Shown here: positions 5,050 through 37,347 of the stretch, piece by piece
Layout of the letters: each line of letters starts with the position of its first letter
Numbering within the stretch: the first letter of the stretch is position 1
Notes under the pieces: model-generated
What the model was told of the DNA's origin: nothing
The model's input: the letters and a program-made list of their open reading frames with translations, nothing else
Database searches by the model: none
Position numbers and translations under genes: made by a program
Assembly (NCBI GenBank): GCA_017940565.1
Contig: JAGAYH010000045.1
Location: forward strand, 1 to 39,405
Origin: Bacteroidaceae bacterium
GTDB taxonomy: Bacteria; Bacteroidota; Bacteroidia; Bacteroidales; Bacteroidaceae
Direction: 5' to 3'
DNA length: 39,405 bases

Positions 5050-5063
5050 CGCGTGATAAACAA

Positions 5064-5141
5064 CGAGGCGCCGTTTCAAATTTACGAAACGGCGCCTCGA
5101 AATTTTGAAGCGGCGTCTCGAAAATCTGAGGCGCCGCTTTG
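5064..5141. terminator. Double hairpin between convergent genes (family A palindromes)
   Basis: The first hairpin, 5064-5099, is a perfect 14-bp stem (CGAGGCGCCGTTTC / GAAACGGCGCCTCG) with an 8-nt loop and is 36 bp in total. The second stem pairs 5108-5119 with 5128-5139 (AAGCGGCGTCTC / GAGGCGCCGCTT) with one G-T pair. They fill the 109-bp gap between the methyltransferase stop (5049) and the end of the convergent M16 gene (5159), so a bidirectional terminator role is likely. Classical T-runs are weak, and the sequence belongs to the dispersed 36-bp palindrome family. Confidence 0.6.
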
Positions 5142-5158
5142 GTATGTCACCTTATTCC

Positions 5159-7395: not shown

Positions 7396-7464
7396 GGACG
7401 GGAAGGGCTTTCCCCGTGGCTGACGGTTGCCGGAAAACGTTGCCCGGGGCAGACCGGTGAATGA

Positions 7465-7500
7465 CTAACTCCGTTTTCGTCACGACGAAAACGGAGTTAG
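7465..7500. repeat. 36-bp palindrome (family B)
   Basis: The halves are CTAACTCCGTTTTCGTCA and CGACGAAAACGGAGTTAG, an inverted repeat with a single central mismatch. It lies 69 nt after the LOG gene. A close relative is at 37225-37260, and composite relatives are at 30771-30832 and 33527-33590. It could act as a terminator hairpin but has no T-run. The rest of the 7396-7900 gap holds the two promoters listed separately and a leader with nothing recognisable. Confidence 0.8.
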
Positions 7501-7654
7501 TTTAGACGAGACCGCATATGGTGCGGCCGGAATTTCCTGCCGGCGGTCCGATGTGTGTTTTGAGCCGGAAAATGACAATTCAGGACTTCGCGGAGTGGAA
7601 AAACGGGAAAATTGCAAGAATTTTGTCCGAAAAGAAAAATTTTTTGCTCTTTTC

Positions 7655-11366: not shown

Positions 11367-11423
11367 GTGCCGTCTCCGCCAGAACCGGGCTTGAGGCTCC
11401 CGCCTCCGGCTGTATGGCGAAAA

Positions 11424-11594
11424 TTTTTGACATTTCTCCGGCAGAGGTCCTGTTTCGGCGTTCACAAGTGGGACTTCGGCGCGCAGAAACGCCGTTTCAA
11501 AATATCGAAACGCCGCTTCTGTTTGACCACATTTGAGAGCCGGTGAATATCAGCGGATTACAAAACCGGTGGAATTATTCCAAAAAATCTTTAC
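11424..11594 (-). repeat. ~175-bp dispersed intergenic element, copy 1 (inverted)
   Basis: Read on the minus strand, this matches the elements at 15390-15563 and 18548-18725 along its length. Shared blocks are TTTTTTGGAA near one end, GTAATC-GCTGATATTCA, CTCTCAAAT-T-GTCA-ACAGAAGCGGCG, a 36-bp palindrome (11485-11520 here), CGAAGTCCCACTTGT and GGACCTCTG. The far end is TGTCAAAA. It lies after a complete terminator, so it is not needed to end the upstream transcript. There is no coding capacity. Confidence 0.85.
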
Positions 11595-11789
11595 AAAACC
11601 CCACTGCAGAAGAGTAGAGGGATGCGGACCGGGTGTCGTAAGGCTGGCGTAGCCATGCGCAGTAGGGCCTTCCCGAGCGATGCCAGCCAATCACTTTGCA
11701 CTGCGCGGGAAACTGGCTGAACATATCGGCTTTTTCGTGGTATGCAAACGGGGTCTTCGTAAAAAAACTCCGGTGAAAAGGCGTTGCAA
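11595..11789. other. Unassigned intergenic stretch
   Basis: Between repeat copy 1 and the next promoter there are about 195 bp with no recognised gene, RNA or repeat. A 79-codon minus-strand frame (11575-11814) covers it but matches nothing known to me and would run into the plus-strand promoter. Nothing further is supported. Confidence 0.4.
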
Positions 11790-11822
11790 TTTGGGGGGTT
11801 GGAAAAATAATCACTATCTTTG
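11790..11822 (+). promoter_or_regulatory. Promoter for the NAGPA-GLUG gene pair
   Basis: A -33 TTTG at 11790-11793 and a -7 TATCTTTG at 11815-11822 are separated by 21 bp. The leader would be about 25 nt. Confidence 0.75.
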
Positions 11823-11853
11823 TAACTCAAAATGAAACAAATCCGATTGTAAT

Positions 11854-13980
11854 ATGAAAGTAAAAACCCTTACAACAACCGCCATCGTCTGCCTGTTGCT
11901 GGCAGGCCGTGCGCTGAGTGCCTATGCCCAGAACGTGTATGCCAACGTGGAGCGCAAGACCGGCGACATGGTGTCGCTGCAGGTGGCGGCTAACCAGAGA
12001 ATTTCGTTTGCCGCCGACGGCGACTATGTGTTGGGAACCTACCATGGTCCCTATGTAACCTTTACCGGCCAAAATGTTTACAAGAGTGTGGCCCGCACGG
12101 CCACAATGCCTCAGGGCACGGCGGCCGGTGCCTGCTTTGGCAGCCGCTACTATCAGTTCACACCCGGCGGCTACGCCGTTTACGACCTGGCCACGGGTGA
12201 GAGCGTCAAGTCGCTCACCACGCTGAGCCAAGCCGCCGACATCACTTTCGGCAGCGTGGACTTTGCCGGGGGCGACACGCCCGTGGCCTATGCCACCGGT
12301 TCCACGTCGAACAGTTCCAGCCTGACGGTAAAAGCCATCGATGTGGAAAACGATGCCGTAGTGCACACGTATGGCTTCAGCGACAAGTCGGGCGGTGCCG
12401 TGGCCGCGTGGGATTTTGACGGCGGACAGTTCTGGGTCATCGACTATGCCTCGACCCCAGGCGACGCCCCCTACACCGTGCAGCAGTATCAGTTCAGTGA
12501 AGACGCCGCGGGCTATACGGCCCAAGGTTCTGCGGTAACGGTGGAAAAATCAGCCAGCGTGTCGGGCGAGTTGGGCGACTGCAAATATCTGAACGGACAC
12601 ATCTACATCCTGACCGGTAACAGCCTCCAGGACTATGACGTGACCAAGGGGGCTGTGGTGGCCACCATTCCCACGGCCTCACAGGCCACGGCCCTGGCCA
12701 TCGTTCCGGAGCAGCGCCGCTTCGTCACCACCGGTGCCGACGGCTGGACCGACCTGCTTGTGGCTCCGTTTGCCTACGAAGCCAATGAAAGCCAGAAGCA
12801 AGTGGTGAGCATCACCAAAACCGACGGCACTACGTTTACCTCCAGCGTTGATTGCCTGGAGAACATGTACTATTCGGAAACTCCGGCAACCCTGCCCCAA
12901 GGCGTGAAAACCTATGAGGGCAGTCCCGTCTATTTCGGTGAATCCTATTTCTTCAAGCGCAAGAAACTGGCCGCCGCCCCGAGCATGGACGGAGCCGCCG
13001 TGTCGCAGTCGCTCAACGGCACCACCTATACGCTGTCGAGCAACGGTACCATCAGTTTCGGCGACTACAAAATAAGCACGGGCCTCACCGGTGCCAGCCA
13101 ATTCCTGGTCGATGCCGACAGCCGCAAGTTTGTAGTTGCTGCCGCGGATGGCACCTACGATGTGGTCTTCGACGGCACGTTCATGTATATCCCCGGCGCC
13201 TCGGGCGAGATAAACCTCGATTCGCTGACGTTGGCCCGTGCCGACTGGAACTGGCAAACCGTGAGCAGCAGCGCCCAGTACGGCACGGTGTCGTTCCCGT
13301 CGCTCTTCAACAGCGCGCAAACCATTTCCATCGTGAAATACCCCGAAAGCGCTCTCTCCAGCAGTCTGGTGCACAAGCCTGGCCAGGAAGCCAACGGCAC
13401 CGACAAACTGGCGGCTGCCGCCGGAGCTACGGTGGCCATCAACGGCAGCTATTTCGACATGTCAACGTTTGAACCCGTCACGGCACTTTGGTACAACGGC
13501 GCCATGCAGTGCGAAGGCGGCAAATCGGCCCGCTGCACAGGCATCGTGGCCTTCAAAGACGGCAAGATAGACTTTGACAAATACGACTACGAAACCACGA
13601 CAAGCGAGGAACTGGCAGCCTGGCAGTCGCGTTACGACGCATTCATGGTAAGCGGCCATCTGCTTCGCCTCAAAGGGGTGGAACAATCCCCCTTCGTGGC
13701 CGACAGCCAGGCCTTCGACGGGGTGAATCCCCGCTCCATGATAGGCGTGACCTCCGACCGCACCGTCTATATGGTCGTTGTCGATGGCCGCCAGTCGGGC
13801 AAAGCCGACGGCCTGACCATCCCGCAAATGGCCCAACTGGCCAAGTACCTGGGTCTGGTCGATGCCATCAATCTTGACGGCGGCGGCTCATCCACCCTGT
13901 GGGTCAAGGGAAAGGGTGTCATCAACACGCCCAGCGGCGGCTCCGTGCGCAAGGTGCCGAATATCATCATAGCAAAATAA
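11854..13980 (+). CDS. Secreted phosphodiester glycosidase family protein (NAGPA domain)
   Basis: The product has 708 residues with a signal peptide ending AYA-Q near residue 26. Residues about 27-450 are a beta-rich region, possibly a propeller, with repeated GDYVLGTYHGPY- and YNGHIYIL-like strands and no recognised motif. The C-terminal part (about 490-708) is the NAGPA-type domain: VAINGSYFD (about 527-535), then NPRSMIGVT, VVVDGRQSGKADGLTIPQ, and the hallmark AINLDGGGSSTLWVKG (about 671-686). In mammals NAGPA removes GlcNAc from mannose-6-phosphate diester (the uncovering enzyme). Bacterial members are thought to cleave phosphodiester-linked sugars on polymers, so a cell-wall or host phosphoglycan substrate is possible but unproven. 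The GLUG/dockerin gene starts 20 nt downstream. Confidence 0.85.
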   Translation: MKVKTLTTTAIVCLLLAGRALSAYAQNVYANVERKTGDMVSLQVAANQRISFAADGDYVLGTYHGPYVTFTGQNVYKSVARTATMPQGTAAGACFGSRYYQFTPGGYAVYDLATGESVKSLTTLSQAADITFGSVDFAGGDTPVAYATGSTSNSSSLTVKAIDVENDAVVHTYGFSDKSGGAVAAWDFDGGQFWVIDYASTPGDAPYTVQQYQFSEDAAGYTAQGSAVTVEKSASVSGELGDCKYLNGHIYILTGNSLQDYDVTKGAVVATIPTASQATALAIVPEQRRFVTTGADGWTDLLVAPFAYEANESQKQVVSITKTDGTTFTSSVDCLENMYYSETPATLPQGVKTYEGSPVYFGESYFFKRKKLAAAPSMDGAAVSQSLNGTTYTLSSNGTISFGDYKISTGLTGASQFLVDADSRKFVVAAADGTYDVVFDGTFMYIPGASGEINLDSLTLARADWNWQTVSSSAQYGTVSFPSLFNSAQTISIVKYPESALSSSLVHKPGQEANGTDKLAAAAGATVAINGSYFDMSTFEPVTALWYNGAMQCEGGKSARCTGIVAFKDGKIDFDKYDYETTTSEELAAWQSRYDAFMVSGHLLRLKGVEQSPFVADSQAFDGVNPRSMIGVTSDRTVYMVVVDGRQSGKADGLTIPQMAQLAKYLGLVDAINLDGGGSSTLWVKGKGVINTPSGGSVRKVPNIIIAK

Positions 13981-14000
13981 TCAGTAAACGATATGGCTTT

Positions 14001-15389
14001 ATGAAAGAGTTATTTTTCTTCGCCCTGATGTCAGGGCTCGCAATACTGACCGCCACAGCGCAAATGGACAAGTTGCAGCTTGTGGTGAACAGCGCCGGTC
14101 AGACCAAAAACTACGTGCTTGCTGACATCACACGGGTGCACTTCGGTCCTGACAAATTGGAAATATCCACGTCTGCCGCCACCGACGGCTACGCCTACGA
14201 AGGCACGTCGGCCGTTGTGCAGGACGGCGACCACACCCACAACTATGTCAACGGCTTCTGCACCTGTCAGACAGAACCCTACCAGTCGGCCACGAAAGGC
14301 AGCGACGGTTCTTATGAGATAGACAACGGCGGCAAACTCTTCTGGTATGCCACCCAAGTCCTCAACGGTGCGGCTTACGATGCCAGACTCACGGCCGACA
14401 TCGATCTGGAGGACCGCCTGTGGGCTCCCATGGGCAATGACGCGCATCCCTATACCGGCACCTTCGACGGTCAGGGCCACGCCATCAAGGGTCTTAACGT
14501 CAATCAGGCTGGCAAGTACACCGGTTTCATCGGTTACCGCACGGGCACGAATGCCGTGAAAAACTTCATTCTCTCCGGTAAAGTGACCTACACCGGCAAC
14601 ACGGCCGAAGACTGTGTGGGCGGCGTAGTGGCCTGGGCCAACGGCCAGAACCTGATACAGGACGTCTGGTGCGCCGTCGATATCGAAGCTCCCAACGCCA
14701 CCAAGAACGTGCGCATCGCCGGCATCATTGCCCGTGAGGAAACGCAGAGCACCATTGACCGCTGTGTCTATGCCGGCACGGCCAACGGCTACGCCACCGC
14801 CATGCAGGTGGCCGGCATCCTGGGCATGGCCGGCAATCCCGGCTCAGGTGTCACGGTGTCGAACAACCTGTTCATCGGTACGCTCAAGGCCACCAACAAG
14901 GAGGCATACGTGGGCGGCATCGTGGGCTATATGGGCAAGTCCAATTTCAGTTGCAAGAACAACCTGAGCATCGGTACCTACGAAGTGCCCAGCGGAGCCA
15001 CACGCACCGGTGCCATCATCGGCAGCTGCAACCGGAACATCAATGCCTCGATGTTCGTGAACAACTATATGCTTTCGGGCCAGAGAGTCATCGGCACGTC
15101 CCATTCCGCTCCCTCCGTGCCCACGGCCACGGCCGTCACGGCAGAAACGTTGGCCGACGGTTCCATAACGGCAGCTCTCGGCACGGACAACTGGCGTCAG
15201 GACACCGACAATCCCGTTCCTTCCGGCGGTTACCAGAAGGCTGACGTCAACCGCGACGGTACGGTCGACTCGGCCGACATCGTGGCCGTCATCAAGGAAA
15301 TGCCCGACGGCGACAAGAAAGCCGACGTCAACGGTGACGGTGTCATCGACTCGGCCGACATCGTGGCGGTCATCAAAGCCATGAAGTGA
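14001..15389 (+). CDS. Secreted GLUG-repeat protein with C-terminal dockerin
   Basis: The protein has 462 residues. Its signal peptide (MKELFFFALMSGLAILTATA-Q) supports the ATG at 14001 rather than an earlier in-frame ATG at 13899, which lies inside the previous gene. An N-terminal motif (LADITRVHFGPDKLEI) is common near the start of Bacteroidales surface proteins. Residues about 145-370 carry GLUG-type repeats (GTFDGQGHAIKGL, FIGYRTGTNAVKNF, VGGVVAWA, VGGIVGYMG), which usually form a beta-helix in adhesins and surface enzymes. The last 50 residues are a type I dockerin-like domain with two calcium loops, DVNRDGTVDSAD and DVNGDGVIDSAD, each followed by IVAVIK. The gene lies 20 nt after the NAGPA gene and is probably cotranscribed. 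Its dockerin DNA is nearly identical to that of the gene ending at 18547. Confidence 0.85.
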   Translation: MKELFFFALMSGLAILTATAQMDKLQLVVNSAGQTKNYVLADITRVHFGPDKLEISTSAATDGYAYEGTSAVVQDGDHTHNYVNGFCTCQTEPYQSATKGSDGSYEIDNGGKLFWYATQVLNGAAYDARLTADIDLEDRLWAPMGNDAHPYTGTFDGQGHAIKGLNVNQAGKYTGFIGYRTGTNAVKNFILSGKVTYTGNTAEDCVGGVVAWANGQNLIQDVWCAVDIEAPNATKNVRIAGIIAREETQSTIDRCVYAGTANGYATAMQVAGILGMAGNPGSGVTVSNNLFIGTLKATNKEAYVGGIVGYMGKSNFSCKNNLSIGTYEVPSGATRTGAIIGSCNRNINASMFVNNYMLSGQRVIGTSHSAPSVPTATAVTAETLADGSITAALGTDNWRQDTDNPVPSGGYQKADVNRDGTVDSADIVAVIKEMPDGDKKADVNGDGVIDSADIVAVIKAMK

Positions 15390-15563
15390 TGTCAAAATTT
15401 TTTGGAAGAATTTCAGCGATTTTGTAATCCGCTGATATTCATCGACTCTCAAATATAGTCAGACAGAAGCGGCGTTTCGAAATTTAGAAAAGCCCCGTAT
15501 GCGCGACGAAGTCCCACTTGTGAACGCCGAAATCGGACCTCTGTCTCCGTTTTGTCAAAAAAA
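15390..15563 (+). repeat. ~175-bp dispersed intergenic element, copy 2
   Basis: It begins directly at the dockerin gene's stop codon with TGTCAAAATTTTTTGGAAG and ends with TTTGTCAAAAAAATC. It is collinear with copy 3 (18548-18725) with scattered substitutions and is inverted relative to copy 1. The central palindrome (15465-15500) is degenerate on its right side. The two ends share TGTCAAAA as a direct repeat. Confidence 0.88.
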
Positions 15564-15593
15564 TCAATTTTTTGAGGTAACCCTTGCCGCCTG

Positions 15594-15624
15594 CCGGCCT
15601 CTGGGGGCGGCCGGAGATTTTTTT
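15594..15624 (+). terminator. Possible intrinsic terminator
   Basis: CCGGCC (15594-15599) pairs with GGCCGG (15609-15614) around a 9-nt loop and is followed by AGA and seven T residues. It would end the NAGPA-GLUG transcript about 200 nt after the stop codon. The stem is short. Confidence 0.5.
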
Positions 15625-15638
15625 AGTTCCTCATTCTC

Positions 15639-15669
15639 TTGGCCTATTCGATGAAAAATAATATCTTTG
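15639..15669 (+). promoter_or_regulatory. Promoter for the phosphatase-like dockerin protein
   Basis: The -7 TATCTTTG at 15662-15669 is clear. The -33 box is a weak TTG at 15639-15641, 20 bp upstream. The leader would be about 82 nt. Confidence 0.6.
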
Positions 15670-15757
15670 CACATATTAAAAGATTTTTTTGATAAGTGAC
15701 GTTCGTCTCTTAGAGCCCAATATGTCTGTGTGAAGTAATAATTAGCCCCTTATAAGT

Positions 15758-18547
15758 ATGAAGAAGAAGATGACCTGGTTGATTCTGTTCGTATGCGGCA
15801 TGTGCCTGTCAGCGCAGGGTCAGATTTTGGAAAATGTAAATGCTTTCGGCGTCAGCAACGCCCCGGCGGCCGTCGGTTTGCCGGCAGCTGACGGTGACGA
15901 TGCCAGCAGTTTCACGGTCGACAACATCAAGTATGCCATCACGGCCTCGAATGCGGTGTCGGTCACTTACCCCAACGCCGAGCAGCCCTCGTCGGAAAAC
16001 AAGAGCACCTACACCGGCGACATCGTCATTCCGGCCACGGTCACCAACGGCGGGAAGACATACAAGGTCACCGCCATCGGCGACTATGCCTTCAATTATG
16101 CCGACATCACGTCCATCATCCTGCCTGAGGGAATAGAGAAATTGGGCTACAAGGCCATTTGCCAGACGCAAATCAAGGAAATCACGGTGCCCAATTCCGT
16201 GACCCTGATGGACTACGAAGCCTTGGGCTATAACAAACAGCTGGTGAAGATAGTCTTCGGCAAAAACATCGCTGCCAACAAGTGGGGCGACAAGCTCTGC
16301 ATCTATGGCGGCAAGAAATACGACGTCTATATGCACTGCAACGCCGTGCCCGAACTGCGCTCCTACACGTTCTCGTTCACCGGCGCCACCGTTCACGTGT
16401 ATCCCATGATGTACGAAGCCTTCAAGGCCAATGCGGCCTGGAATGCCTATGACATCGTGGGTGACCTGTGGATAGAATTTACCTACCAGCAGTTGCAGGA
16501 CACCATAGCCAAATACAAGGCCCTGCTGCCTACCGAGGCAGAGGTGGGCACCGACCCCGGTTTCTATTCGGCCGCGCCGGTCAAGAGCCTTGCCGGGGCC
16601 CTGCAGGACGCCGAGGCCCTTGACGAGAGTGCCACCTTAAAGGAAATCAACGAAGCCATCAACGACGTCGTCATAGCCTACAACGGCCTGTACATCTATC
16701 CCTTAAACGAAGGCTACTACTACATAGAGAATGTCTATGAACCCGGCCAGGCCCTCTATGGCGATATGGCCTCGTACTCCCAGCAGGGCTTGAAGGCGGC
16801 GCCGTTCAATCCCGACAGCCTGAAGTTCTGCTTCAAGGTGACCCGCAACGACAATAACTGGGCCATCCAGTCAGTGGAGAACACTTTTTACATCGGCAGC
16901 AGCGTAGGCGGCTCCAGCAGCGGCAAATACATCGCCCTGACGCGTACCCCCACGAAAGCCCAAATCATCAAGTGGGCAGGCGGCGGCCGTTTCAAGCTGC
17001 AAAGCAAGTATTCCTCTACGGCCACGACGCCCACCTACCGTCTGGCTGACAATGGTGAGGTGACCACATTCAATTATGCCGCCGACGACGCCGAGGCCAC
17101 CCGCGCCATGTGGCATTTCCGTCCCGTCAAGTCCGGTGTGTGCGCCATGGACTATAATCTCGAAAACGTCCGCGTGCGCGGTTTCGTGCACGACTTCACC
17201 TATTCGACCGCGGCTTCATCGCGTGTGAACAGCTACAATGTGGCTCCGCCCGAGCGCCGCGACCAACCTGCACCAGCCATAGTGGCCTGGACGCCCAGCG
17301 CCACGGCCACGGCCCAGAAAGTGGTATGGAGCCTTGACGAAGATTTCGCCAGCTCCACTACTGTCAGTGTCAAGCCCGAGGAAACTTTCTGTGAAATCTA
17401 CAACCTCATTCCCGGCAACACCTATTACTACAAAGTGGTGGCCACCGGGGCCGACGGCAACGAGAGCGAACTGGTGTCGTCGTCGTTCACCACCTCCGGC
17501 CAGGTGCGCCAAATCAAGGCCAACAGCGCGGCCAACATGCGCGACCTCGGGGGGTGGCCCACCTTGAGCGGCTATTCCATACATTATGGCAAAATCTACC
17601 GCGGCGCCGAGTTCAACGGCGGCCACAGTATCACGGCCGACGACGCCCTCATACTGAAGCAGGTGGGCATACGCTCCGAGCTGGACCTGCGCTATGACTC
17701 GGAAGCCAAGAACATCACCACCTCGCCTCTGGGCACGGGTGTCACTTACAAACGCATAGCCCACTCCTACAGTGACGTCTATTACGACGGCATGACCGCC
17801 GGCCGCCATCTCTACAAGCAGGACTTGCAGTATGTGATGACCTGCGTCAAGGCCAACCGCCCCGTTTACTTCCACTGCGCCATCGGTGCCGACCGCACGG
17901 GCACGCTGGCTTTCATCATCGAGGGCGTGTTGGGCGTGAGCGAGAGCGACCTTTACAAGGATTACGAGATTACCACCTTCTCGCACTATCAGACTGGCCG
18001 CGGCAAGAGCCAGTTGTCGAAGCAGATGTCTTATATCAAGGGCATCAAGGGCAACACCCTGGAAGAGAAATTCTTTAAGTATTGCACTGACTCCCTCGGG
18101 CTGAAAGCGGCCGACATCATCGACTTCAAGAGCCGCATGCTGGGCAACACCTTCGCCACCTCCGTGGCGCTGCCCGATGACACCGTCAACCTGTCGGTGG
18201 GCCAGACGTTTGCGCTCGCCCCGACCGTGCTGCCCGCCGACGCCAATCCCACCTACACCTACAAGTCCTCGGCATCGACCGTGGCCAAGGTATCCAAGGA
18301 AGGGGTCATTACCGGCCAGAAGGAGGGTACCGCCGTCATCACCGTGATGGCCGGCGTGGTCAGCACGGAAGTAGTGGTCAATGTCACCCTTAATCCCGCC
18401 GACGTCAACCGTGACGGCACGGTGGACTCGGCCGACATCGTGGCCGTCATCAAGGAAATGCCCGACGGCGACAAGAAAGCCGACGTCAACGGTGACGGTG
18501 TTATCGACTCGGCCGACATCGTGGCGGTCATCAAAGCCATGAAGTAA
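15758..18547 (+). CDS. Secreted BspA-LRR / tyrosine-phosphatase-like / Ig-like / dockerin protein
   Basis: The protein has 929 residues with a signal peptide (MKKKMTWLILFVCGMCLSAQ). Residues about 80-215 are BspA-type leucine-rich repeats (GDYAFNYADITSIILPEGIEKLG). A helical linker and beta-rich region follow. A fibronectin-III-like domain lies at about 500-580 (NTYYYKVVATGADGNES). Residues about 586-795 form a tyrosine-phosphatase-like domain: entry motif NMRDLGG, then R-S-ELDLR, and the P-loop H706-C707-A-I-G-A-D-R713-T-G, with both the nucleophilic Cys and the phosphate-binding Arg of C-x5-R present. Residues about 804-878 are a Big_2-like Ig domain (VNLSVGQTFAL, EGTAVITV), and the last 50 are a dockerin. 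An intact phosphatase P-loop on an exported protein is unusual; phosphorylated host proteins, phospholipids or inositol phosphates are candidate substrates, none proven. It has its own promoter. Confidence 0.85.
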   Translation: MKKKMTWLILFVCGMCLSAQGQILENVNAFGVSNAPAAVGLPAADGDDASSFTVDNIKYAITASNAVSVTYPNAEQPSSENKSTYTGDIVIPATVTNGGKTYKVTAIGDYAFNYADITSIILPEGIEKLGYKAICQTQIKEITVPNSVTLMDYEALGYNKQLVKIVFGKNIAANKWGDKLCIYGGKKYDVYMHCNAVPELRSYTFSFTGATVHVYPMMYEAFKANAAWNAYDIVGDLWIEFTYQQLQDTIAKYKALLPTEAEVGTDPGFYSAAPVKSLAGALQDAEALDESATLKEINEAINDVVIAYNGLYIYPLNEGYYYIENVYEPGQALYGDMASYSQQGLKAAPFNPDSLKFCFKVTRNDNNWAIQSVENTFYIGSSVGGSSSGKYIALTRTPTKAQIIKWAGGGRFKLQSKYSSTATTPTYRLADNGEVTTFNYAADDAEATRAMWHFRPVKSGVCAMDYNLENVRVRGFVHDFTYSTAASSRVNSYNVAPPERRDQPAPAIVAWTPSATATAQKVVWSLDEDFASSTTVSVKPEETFCEIYNLIPGNTYYYKVVATGADGNESELVSSSFTTSGQVRQIKANSAANMRDLGGWPTLSGYSIHYGKIYRGAEFNGGHSITADDALILKQVGIRSELDLRYDSEAKNITTSPLGTGVTYKRIAHSYSDVYYDGMTAGRHLYKQDLQYVMTCVKANRPVYFHCAIGADRTGTLAFIIEGVLGVSESDLYKDYEITTFSHYQTGRGKSQLSKQMSYIKGIKGNTLEEKFFKYCTDSLGLKAADIIDFKSRMLGNTFATSVALPDDTVNLSVGQTFALAPTVLPADANPTYTYKSSASTVAKVSKEGVITGQKEGTAVITVMAGVVSTEVVVNVTLNPADVNRDGTVDSADIVAVIKEMPDGDKKADVNGDGVIDSADIVAVIKAMK

Positions 18548-18725
18548 TGTCAAAATTTTTTGGAAGAATTTCAGCGGTTTTGTAATCTGCTGATATTCAT
18601 CGGCTCTCAAATGTGGTCAGACAGAAGCGGCGTTTCGAAATTTCGAAGCGCCGTTTCTGCGCGCCGAAGTCCCACTTGTAACGGCCGAAATCGGACCTCT
18701 GTCTCCGTTATGTCAAAAAAAATTG
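18548..18725 (+). repeat. ~175-bp dispersed intergenic element, copy 3
   Basis: It starts at the stop codon of the phosphatase-like gene with the same TGTCAAAATTTTTTGGAAG as copy 2 and ends at TATGTCAAAAAAAATTG. The central 36-bp palindrome at 18623-18658 is intact here (AGAAGCGGCGTTTCGAAA / TTTCGAAGCGCCGTTTCT, two wobble positions). The rest of the gap up to 18834 holds no clear TAnnTTTG box; a TAAACTTTTTG-like stretch near 18757 is too irregular to call. Confidence 0.88.
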
Positions 18726-18834
18726 GAAAACCAGTCCGCCGGCTTTCATCCTTCCATTAAACTTTTTGGCTTTCCGGCGGTCTTAAACAATGACCGCACG
18801 ATGGTCTTGTATCAATGATTTATCCTAAACAGAA

Positions 18835-23442: not shown

Positions 23443-23474
23443 CCCACCTTGTAAAAACGGGGTGGGACTTTTTT
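23443..23474 (+). terminator. Intrinsic terminator of the efflux operon
   Basis: CCCACCTTG (23443-23451) pairs with CGGGGTGGG (23458-23466) around TAAAAA, then AC and six T residues. It lies 24 nt after the permease stop. Confidence 0.85.
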
Positions 23475-23496
23475 ATTCCTAAATGGGACTTAGAAA

Positions 23497-23556
23497 TTTT
23501 GAAACGCCGTTTGTGATTTTCGAGGCGCCGTTTCAAAATTCTGAGGCGCCGCCTTT
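23497..23556. repeat. Degenerate cluster of family A half-sites
   Basis: A right half-site, TTTTGAAACGCCGTTTGT (23497-23514), is followed by a 36-bp unit at 23521-23556. The unit's halves (CGAGGCGCCGTTTCAAAA and TTCTGAGGCGCCGCCTTT) resemble family A but pair imperfectly. The preceding GGGACTT matches the flank of the ~175-bp element in the orientation of copy 1, so this may be an eroded copy. Confidence 0.55.
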
Positions 23557-30700: not shown

Positions 30701-30770
30701 CTCATTTTCCCGACTTCCGCCGCCTAAACGGGGCCTGCTTTTTCAACTCCCGGCCAAGGCGTCAGTGAAC

Positions 30771-30832
30771 CTAACTCCGTTTTCGTCACGCCTAAATCCG
30801 ATTTAGGCGCGCCCAAATGCGTCTTCGTTTTT
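30771..30832. repeat. Composite family B repeat
   Basis: The left half-site CTAACTCCGTTTTCGTCA is the same as at 7465. It is followed by a 21-bp palindrome, CGCCTAAATC-C-GATTTAGGCG (30789-30809), and by GCCCAAATGCGTCTTCGTT. The same order occurs at 33527-33590. It lies in the gap between divergent genes. Confidence 0.75.
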
Positions 30833-33503: not shown

Positions 33504-33526
33504 AGAGGGAAACCGTCAGGACATTC

Positions 33527-33590
33527 CTATCTCCGTTTTCGTCGCACCTAAATCGGATTTAGTCAGGCCCAAATGCGTTTTCGTCGTGCC
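33527..33590. repeat. Composite family B repeat
   Basis: CTATCTCCGTTTTCGTCG is followed by the palindrome CTAAATC-G-GATTTAG (33548-33562) and GCCCAAATGCGTTTTCGTCG. It is parallel in order to 30771-30832. The remaining 33591-33672 shows nothing recognisable. Confidence 0.75.
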
Positions 33591-33672
33591 GGGGTGTGGC
33601 GTGAAAACCGGCAGGGGGCAAGGCTGCAGGCGGGCAGGAGGGGACGGAAAATGAAAGTTTTTTGTTTTGGCA

Positions 33673-37096: not shown

Positions 37097-37120
37097 GCCA
37101 CGTTATATAGTCGGACGAAA

Positions 37121-37162
37121 CAAGGCGGCGCCTCGAATTTTCGAGACGCCGTCTTGTTTTTT
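37121..37162 (+). terminator. Terminator after the M60 gene, built from a family A palindrome
   Basis: The 36-bp palindrome at 37121-37156 (CAAGGCGGCGCCTCGAAT / TTTCGAGACGCCGTCTTG, G-T pairs only) is followed by six T residues. The preceding TATAGTCGGAC resembles the ATAGTCAGAC flank of the ~175-bp element at 15454-15463. Confidence 0.75.
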
Positions 37163-37224
37163 CGAGGCGCCGTCTTTGGGCGGCGGAGCCGGCGGATGGG
37201 AAAGCAACTCTGTTTTCAGTCGGC

Positions 37225-37260
37225 CTATCTCCGTTTTCGTCGCGACGAAAACGGAGATAG
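37225..37260. repeat. Perfect 36-bp palindrome (family B)
   Basis: The halves CTATCTCCGTTTTCGTCG and CGACGAAAACGGAGATAG are exact reverse complements with no spacer. It is the cleanest member of the family; compare 7465-7500. Confidence 0.9.
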
Positions 37261-37347
37261 TGGTCCGCCAGGGCGTAAAACGTCCTCTCAGTGCATTTCC
37301 GTCAGAAAAACAAGAAAGAAAAGCATAGCTATACGTGCGTTTATTCG

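Follow-up and report, generated by a model that had tools for sequence, protein, structure and literature searches.

The BOX elements of streptococci are interspersed repeats in which end modules surround internal modules that are shared but vary in number, and in S. suis one and the same boxB is found between differing end modules; RNA stem-loops are predicted for them, and they occur in excess between convergent genes (PMC3049150). The BrickBuilt MITE of Porphyromonas gingivalis consists of a leader, tandem 23-nt repeats and a tail, is always intergenic, and is present in 19 copies in one strain. It is also found in P. gulae, and the two species have some of its locations in common; its terminal inverted repeats are IS5-family-like, and three of four intact copies have short flanking duplications; the term 'palindrom' is never used in the main text describing it (PMC4596501). 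REPs are short palindromic units in intergenic DNA, often occurring as dimers, and include a GTAG type with RAYT transposases and a CGTC type without a known transposase. The CGTC type has been reported in Bacteroidetes, there too without a dedicated transposase, and has stems of 8–9 bp, loops of 4–5 nt and only rare clusters (PMC3733652, PMC2817692).

The window (the whole stretch of DNA analysed, 39,405 nt) carries three copies, one of them inverted, of the repeat proposed in the first-pass annotation, a non-coding element of about 178 bp: copy 1 at 11424-11595 (minus), copy 2 at 15390-15563 (plus) and copy 3 at 18548-18725 (plus), with slightly wider extents in Table 1. They share 83–90% pairwise identity and score 134.7–145.8 bits in the family-model search. 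Given that copy 2 has 42 BLAST matches within its own genome (two of them palindrome-only), the window repeat is far beyond chance. The element is laid out as an 18-bp terminal repeat, a left arm of about 56 bp and three to four 13-bp sites, and it closes with a short right arm and the other terminal repeat. The direct repeat first noticed at the ends, TGTCAAAA, is indeed present in copies 2 and 3, once at each end; copy 1 has TGTAAAGA at its left end instead, and the terminal repeat is really about 18 bp long. Likewise, the 36-bp palindrome described at the centre of each copy is present, but decayed in copy 2, and it resolves into two 13-bp palindromes 21 bp apart, followed in phase by a third unit (GAAGTCCCACTTG) and a degenerate fourth. 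Compared by description, the leader/repeat/tail plan, the intergenic location and the conservation of some positions between two species recall BrickBuilt (PMC4596501), whereas the direct terminal repeats, lack of target duplication, palindromic units, period of 21, two unit classes and higher copy number do not. The variable end modules around common internal units are a BOX-like feature, a likeness of kind and not of descent, as judged by architecture and not by sequence; neither the stem-loops nor the convergent-gene excess of BOX is seen here.

Table 1. Copies of the element and 21-bp arrays in the window.
Feature	Position	Strand	Remarks
Copy 1	11417..11595	-	Left terminal repeat 11578-11595 (TGTAAAGATTTTTTGGAA)
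Copy 1, right terminal repeat	11417-11432	-	TGTCAAAAATTTTCGC
Copy 1, paired palindromes	11486-11519	-	
Copy 2	15390..15564	+	First base directly follows the stop TGA of a dockerin ORF (13899-15389); TGTCAAAA of the right end at 15553-15560; palindrome decayed in its second unit
Copy 3	18548..18728	+	First base directly follows the stop TAA of a dockerin ORF (15758-18547); terminal repeat of the right end from 18711
Copy 3, paired palindromes	18624-18657		Third unit GAAGTCCCACTTG at 18666-18678
Bare class-1 21-bp array	5058..5148	.	Without arms
Bare class-1 21-bp array	23472..23556	.	Without arms; partial trace of the first-pass annotation
Class-2 21-bp array	30770..30828	.	CTAACTCCGTTTTCGTC / CTAAATCSGATTTAG units
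Class-2 21-bp array	33526..33605	.	
Bare class-1 21-bp array	37114..37176	.	About 18 nt past the stop of a third dockerin ORF; partial trace of the first-pass annotation

A search of the genome and its relatives revealed that the family extends beyond the window and is genome-wide in both the window's own genome (G000) and one congener (G015), two uncultured bacteria with incomplete assemblies (63% and 68% complete). Full-length copies number 60 in G000 and 34 in G015, in the genome stretches extracted from each, and BLAST did not find the family in 17 of 18 congeners or in 42 more distant genomes. Paired array sites number 135 and 144, respectively, and 0 in 59 other genomes. No copy lies inside a long ORF; copies are found between genes, with edges that are sharp at both sides and flanks that are mostly unrelated. 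Those of G000 are spread over the four gene arrangements in numbers of 14/13/12/11, a random order relative to genes; a strand bias by GC skew was rejected (35 vs 27). Matches to the consensus of Bacteroidetes-type promoters were found inside 0 and 2 of 96 copies on the two strands (0.7 and 0.2 when shuffled), and no exact pattern match was found in viral contigs. A strong stem (score of at least 18) lies beside the left flank in 8/33 copies in G015 and 7/62 in G000, and beside the right flank in 2/32 and 5/61; a group II-C-like insertion behind terminators was set aside, such a stem adjoining a minority of copies.

The core of the element is an array of palindromic 13-mers with a pitch of exactly 21 bp, or two helical turns, of which the 36-bp palindrome is the first half. 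Among 13-mer spacings of up to 70 nt in G000, 21 occurs in 96 cases, 42 in 25, 63 in 4 and 24 in 1, and the counts for 21, 42 and 63 in G015 are 72, 18 and 3. The inner dyad pair of unit 3 is kept in 108 of 112 cases though its letters switch (62.8 expected), and this dyad, which is no stem, was the top pair of the covariation scan. The core is modular, being found also with other ends, without the left arm, or bare; the partial traces previously flagged at 23461-23556 and 37108-37156 have the 21-bp array in common with the copies, but not the arms. A second sequence class of the array is present in the window at 7464, 30770, 33526 and 37203. As short palindromic units in intergenic DNA these sites resemble REPs, but unlike the CGTC type they are 13 bp long (arms of 5–6) and form arrays of exact pitch. 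The GTAG tag that defines GTAG REPs/BIMEs is absent from the unit sequences. The stem and loop sizes and terminal CGTC (or TGTC, CCTC) of the other type do not fit either, with unit dyad arms of at most 6 and, for the whole palindrome, 13-bp arms around about 8 nt; a CGTC string follows the unit in 17 of 117 cases among the copies listed, and class-2 units contain CGTC.

The first-pass annotation had also considered a structured RNA or a 3' processing module, and both are now highly improbable. Copy 3 does fold more strongly than shuffled sequences (z -4.8), mainly via the palindrome, three of five measures give pooled pair counts above those of all 500 shuffles, and G-T is in excess of A-C both overall (96 vs 54) and at positions 4, 14 and 15 of the hairpin (23/6, 17/7 and 17/5). 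However, the two are balanced at positions 10 and 11 (25 vs 22), the window has 0 Rfam matches at the gathering score, and the RNAalifold fold contains the central hairpin only, with one pair showing a compensatory change and no stem at the right end. A left-arm RNA hairpin looked significant in pooled counts (z 3.0, 1/500 shuffles), but it was set aside because it lost significance when each genome was taken alone (z 1.2 and 1.5). Processing at 3' ends is unsupported, since the copies have no orientation relative to genes.

The terminal repeat is an 18-bp degenerate direct repeat, TGTMAARAWTTTTTnnMA, and because this motif is nearly palindromic the ends can also be read as inverted repeats. 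Size, copy number and intergenic location would fit a DDE-transposase MITE of the classical kind, which has inverted ends and a target duplication of fixed length, but this is improbable: an exhaustive scan over 14,130 combinations of offset and length per set detected no target-site duplication beyond chance (top z 3.4), and a left end resembles the right end of its own copy no more than those of other copies (740 matches vs 761 shuffled in G000). The terminal repeats could be ruled out as target duplications themselves, as left and right ends are uncorrelated within copies. Solitary end motifs were similarly rejected, as 37 of the 39 matches to TGTCAAAAATTTTTGG in G000 (up to two mismatches) coincide with family-model matches, the remaining two being at C55:6 (a contig start) and C5:28249 (a stretch without such a match).

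If TGTCAAAA were the cleavage or crossover motif at both ends of a single-strand (IS200/IS605-type, 'PATE') or site-specific-recombinase element, direct repeats and the absence of target duplication would follow, and G015 shows a near-invariant left motif and a nearly free sequence past the right TGTCAAAA. This alternative is nonetheless unlikely. At assembly completeness of 63–68%, neither genome has a Y1 transposase (Y1_Tnp, including RAYT), and each has only two tyrosine recombinases, the number expected for XerC/XerD; no mobilising enzyme emerged from this search, which covered these two enzyme groups. The core palindrome is internal, not terminal, and the subterminal hairpins of IS200/IS605-derived PATEs are not found at both ends, the left-arm stem being significant only when pooled and the right-end stem absent. 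No autonomous partner, sought as a locus where solitary left and right arms lie on one strand, was found in the analysed stretches of these incomplete genomes. Several pairs of copies have both flanks different (L016/L007, 93.6% alike; L017/L030, 93.1%; L016/L025, 91.5%), and the most alike copies (95–98%) have one flank in common, a pattern that duplication would give. Of the possibilities first raised, a non-autonomous mobile element fits best, with a high copy number, sharp boundaries, flanks that are mostly unrelated, a recent subfamily and no coding, but without the target duplication of a classical MITE and with direct repeats as ends.

At the orthologous sites compared, the array usually persists in position while the arms come and go. 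An array or element is found at the orthologous G015 place for 5/5 placeable window positions and for 3/4 on a second stretch, and in six orthologous pairs the core is 77% identical, compared with 43% and 29% for the anchored flanks. Where G000 has the class-2 array at 30770, a class-1 array occupies the orthologous G015 place. Orthologous copies are 59–66% alike and random between-genome pairs 61.8% on average, so that selection in place is indistinguishable from repeated replacement. A check for empty sites at the candidate loci (L146/L105 and that of copy 1) gave no nucleotide-level case; G015 intergenic DNA does not align where the element is absent, and the boundaries therefore rest on flank divergence. 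Most comparable insertions are common to G015 and thus do not demonstrate present activity. The concern that the repeat might exist only in the window, riding on a dockerin gene duplication, has some basis in that copies 2 and 3 follow dockerin genes, a pairing already present in G015, but among 62 G000 copies a dockerin end lies within 500 nt of only 3. Taken with persistence in position and module swapping at orthologous loci and the shared flank of the most alike copies, a phased pair within 200 nt after 10 of 15 G015 dockerin 3' ends (compared with 6 of 128 tiles of that length from five other loci in G015) could indicate host architectural or regulatory arrays, not mobile as such, that selection maintains and that spread through duplication, gene conversion and the exchange of modules with, for example, dockerin ends. 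This is doubtful in view of the sharp edges at both sides, the 91–94% identical copies with both flanks different, the few G000 copies near dockerin ends and the failure to find the family in 17 of 18 congeners.

The reading favoured here, with a probability of roughly 0.6, is an intergenic element of modular, non-autonomous make-up that was mobile in the past or is slowly mobile, has a plan like that of BOX and BrickBuilt, and carries a helically phased platform for a putative dimeric DNA-binding protein. The arms and terminal repeats would be the past, and at times perhaps present, substrate of an enzyme acting in trans, which may copy the element into A/T-rich intergenic spots without target duplication. 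The phased core would provide, at the DNA level and on one face of the helix, a platform for a dimeric sequence-specific protein, and would be what a locus retains after loss or exchange of the arms. Mobility in trans, protein binding and selection are what we infer beyond the observed copy number, edges, lack of a detectable target duplication, 21-bp phase, modularity and persistence in position at the compared loci. Tentatively, and with the odds against it, the arrays may form a position-conserved network of helically phased palindromes, whose recognition sequence was swapped throughout the genome from one sister species to the other, with place and 21-bp pitch unchanged, driven by co-evolution with a putative dimeric protein organising chromosome or transcript ends; the 178-bp element would then be the vehicle that seeds new arrays.

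The element adds to the known repeats a family that has direct repeats at its ends and lacks a target duplication. Repeats dispersed between genes are often regarded as transposons in decay. The core described here outlives its surroundings at the compared orthologous loci. With the exact two-turn phase, the persistence of the core and one site that has a changed unit at the same place and pitch, the idea of a selected binding platform becomes testable.

The first-pass annotation had described three copies of an approximately 175 bp element in the window as alignable end to end, and this was borne out both by pairwise alignment and by direct reading of the sequence. Self-comparison of the window gave 87% and 83% identity for the inverted pairs I1 and I2, and 93% over 300 nt for the direct pair D2, a stretch that includes dockerin coding sequence; over the element alone, copies 2 and 3 are 90% identical. 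The window is contig C18 of an assembly (G000) of 1.79 Mb that is 63% complete. With copy 2 as BLAST query, at least 42 matches were found in this genome, two of them palindrome-only (40 of 96 first-look candidates scored), and a sequence-only family model built from 45 copies returned at least 150 matches in G000 and at least 151 in a congener, G015, the weak matches spanning the core only. The fetched stretches, which were picked for matching the family, yielded 60 distinct full-length copies from G000 and 34 from G015, together with 16 and 7 partial rows, some of them palindrome-only.

Copies of the element and class-2 arrays in the window
Feature	Position	Strand
Copy 1	11424-11595	-
Copy 2	15390-15563	+
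Copy 3	18548-18725	+
Class-2 array	7464-7522	
Class-2 array	30770-30828	
Class-2 array	33526-33605	
Class-2 array	37203-37282	

BLAST detected the element in 2 of 61 genomes (its own genome, 18 congeners, 18 from other genera of the family and 24 from the order), and in none of 120 further family genomes drawn and searched under strict filters, a draw that evidently left G015 outside. When 84,980 species genomes, a set that may omit the window's own, were scanned with a pattern, all 28 stretches recovered came from CAMZHB01 (labelled as an uncultured Prevotellaceae bacterium, with contigs matching those of G015); viral contigs gave no exact match to the element pattern. The family is real, abundant and, within the genomes searched, limited to one lineage.

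In an alignment of 30 oriented copies, similarity starts abruptly at TGTC on the left and ends at another motif of this type on the right, and most flanks are unrelated; the exceptions, sharing one flank, are the loci L015/L016/L017/L027, L010/L019/L138, L022/L028 and L159/L163. The first of these groups (contigs C31, C6, C53 and C17 of G000) comprises four young copies with a common right flank and differing left flanks, several at contig ends. Both terminal motifs of G000 copies are TGTMAARAWTTTTT and continue with variable bases (GGAA and ACCA, for example); G015 copies have TGTCAARATTTTTTACC on the left and little beyond TGTCAAAA on the right. Matches between left and right ends within a copy numbered 740 in G000 (shuffled mean 761) and 301 in G015 (shuffled 304), and since the ends are no more alike within than between copies, the terminal repeats are ruled out as target-site duplications. 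Target duplication was also absent at every fixed offset tested around the copies. A and T predominate at the three positions preceding the left edge.

Each of the two genomes, both incompletely assembled, carries two tyrosine recombinases and no detected Y1 transposase; Y1 transposases are present in four congeners, all without a BLAST match to the element. One G000 recombinase gene (C34:5231-5752) adjoins the copy at C34:5858, perhaps by chance. Several copies have REP-like repeats immediately next to them, in which GTAG precedes a short GCCC/GGGC hairpin (AAAGTAGCCCCAACAGGGCGAAAG); these repeats occur in the left or right flanks of L010, L019, L138, L012, L008 and L018, in a genome where no Y1 transposase was detected. 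Another interspersed repeat, of about 200 bp, lies at L212:1621-1831 (G000:C15:30320-30530) and is 92-94% alike at C9:21442 and C10:40045.

Units 1-3 of the core are palindromic and unit 4 more weakly so; positions 0 and 5 are non-palindromic. With up to 1 mismatch tolerated, the spacings of the palindromic 13-mers up to 70 nt in the fetched stretches are 21, 42 and 63 and no others in G015, and the same with a single 24 in G000. Two helical turns at 10.5 bp per turn amount to 21 bp, so this pitch places all 13-mer sites on one side of the helix. The inner pair of unit 3 is preserved in 108 of 112 copies (62.8 expected) and alternates between T-A (74) and C-G (34), a switch that accompanies exchange of the whole unit.

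That the element is a structured RNA is not well supported. The fold of copy 3 (z -4.8) and pooled pair counts are in its favour, but there is no Rfam match, and the central hairpin alone was recovered, with one compensatory pair. G-T exceeds A-C overall (96 vs 54) and at hairpin positions 4, 14 and 15, yet the two are balanced at positions 10 and 11 (25 vs 22); likewise, the left-arm stem is significant when the genomes are pooled (z 3.0) but unsupported within either. Copies also lack orientation relative to genes. By a greedy ORF caller rather than curated annotation, the 50 G000 copies whose two neighbours could be determined fall into convergent (14), tandem (13 + 11) and divergent (12) arrangements, and the 27 in G015, in the same order, into 4, 8, 6 and 9. 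None of 62 G000 and 34 G015 copies lies inside an ORF of at least 200 aa, and such an ORF, sense or antisense, enters the element edge by 63-99 nt in 5 and 1 of these, respectively; ORFs of at least 100 aa, many probably spurious, overlap 24 and 9.

Copies 2 and 3 begin on the base directly following the stop codon of genes with terminal Dockerin_1 domains, and their G015 counterparts likewise begin right past the stop codon (L180). A dockerin end lies within 500 nt of 3/62 G000 and 1/34 G015 copies. With five alignment rows set aside for lack of a stop codon, 10 of 15 dockerin 3' ends in G015 had at least two phased 13-mers within 200 nt downstream (up to 2 mismatches); in a rough control that cut five other G015 loci, with their coding DNA, into 128 tiles of 200 nt, 6 tiles held such a pair. 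This excess, with so few copies near dockerin ends, indicates that arrays travel with dockerin ends and that the full-length family is not restricted there. Such ends at L257, L260, L266-L269, L273 and L277 look as if domain end and array were copied as one module. In the window, 11854-13980 (phosphodiester glycosidase domain) overlaps the dockerin ORF at 13899-15389; a frameshift or assembly error may have broken a single gene into these two.

A second G000 family joins the same core to other ends (left GTTGCGATTTTGTTAACTAAAA, right TTAACATTnnCGTGTTAAAA), and at further loci the core is accompanied by the right arm alone or stands as a bare array of 2-6 units. A pattern of paired phased 13-mers, allowing up to 2 mismatches, hits 135 sites in G000, 144 in G015 and none in the 59 other genomes; the reversed pattern, run as a control, gave no sites. 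Class-2 arrays have the same 21 bp pitch with units CTAACTCCGTTTTCGTC / CTAAATCSGATTTAG; they occupy 48 sites in G000, and the other 60 genomes, G015 among them, have none.

Both flanks are in matching order and the site is occupied in both species at L001, L002, L141, L145, L150, L151, L160 and L167 (only partially at L002 and L151), a set biased towards occupied sites, since presence of the element was the reason for retrieving the G015 loci. One copy in L146 also has flanks that match on both sides, and G015 lacks the element there. The window offers a less biased comparison. Contig C30 of G015 carries both genes that neighbour copy 1 (identities of 81% and 68%); the space between these genes lacks a full element and contains a three-unit array without arms. 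The counterpart of copy 2 is an element, and that of copy 3 a left arm with array. At 30770, G015 has a four-unit class-1 array in place of the class-2 array; the counterpart of the array at 37114 lies 42 nt past a stop codon. The window has five further arrays (5058, 7464, 23461, 33526 and 37203); the search for counterparts covered those at 23461 and 33526 and found none. Five copies lie along a 20 kb stretch of C15: for three of them G015 has an element or core beside the corresponding conserved neighbour (two placed by one flank only), one site is empty and one unplaceable.

Across six orthologous pairs, identity is 77% in the core, 68% in the left end, 56% in the left arm, 52% in the right arm and 51% in the right end, against 43% and 29% in the anchored left and right flanks, so that the family core has outlasted its flanks. 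Orthologous pairs are 59-66% alike, no more than pairs drawn randomly across the two genomes (mean 61.8%). The copy tree groups mainly by genome, with exceptions. Persistence of the core may reflect selection or repeated replacement in place, as the comparison fits both. Excluded from the six were two partial cases, L143/L037 (86% identical, only the right flank in common), and L145/L036 and L167/L181, whose elements (99.5-100% identical) and flanks (85-100%) are unlike the other shared loci compared; these last two were perhaps recently exchanged.

As far as their descriptions go, BrickBuilt and BOX have the same plan of end module, internal periodic units and end module, and CGTC REPs resemble the element in that they are short palindromes for which no transposase is known, but differ in stem length and pitch. 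The open-licence literature yielded no description of this element or of 21 bp phased palindromic arrays in Prevotellaceae, and the element is a variant, not previously described there, of modular intergenic repeats. Of most interest is its array of exactly phased units, which stays put while the arms and, at one site, the unit sequence differ.
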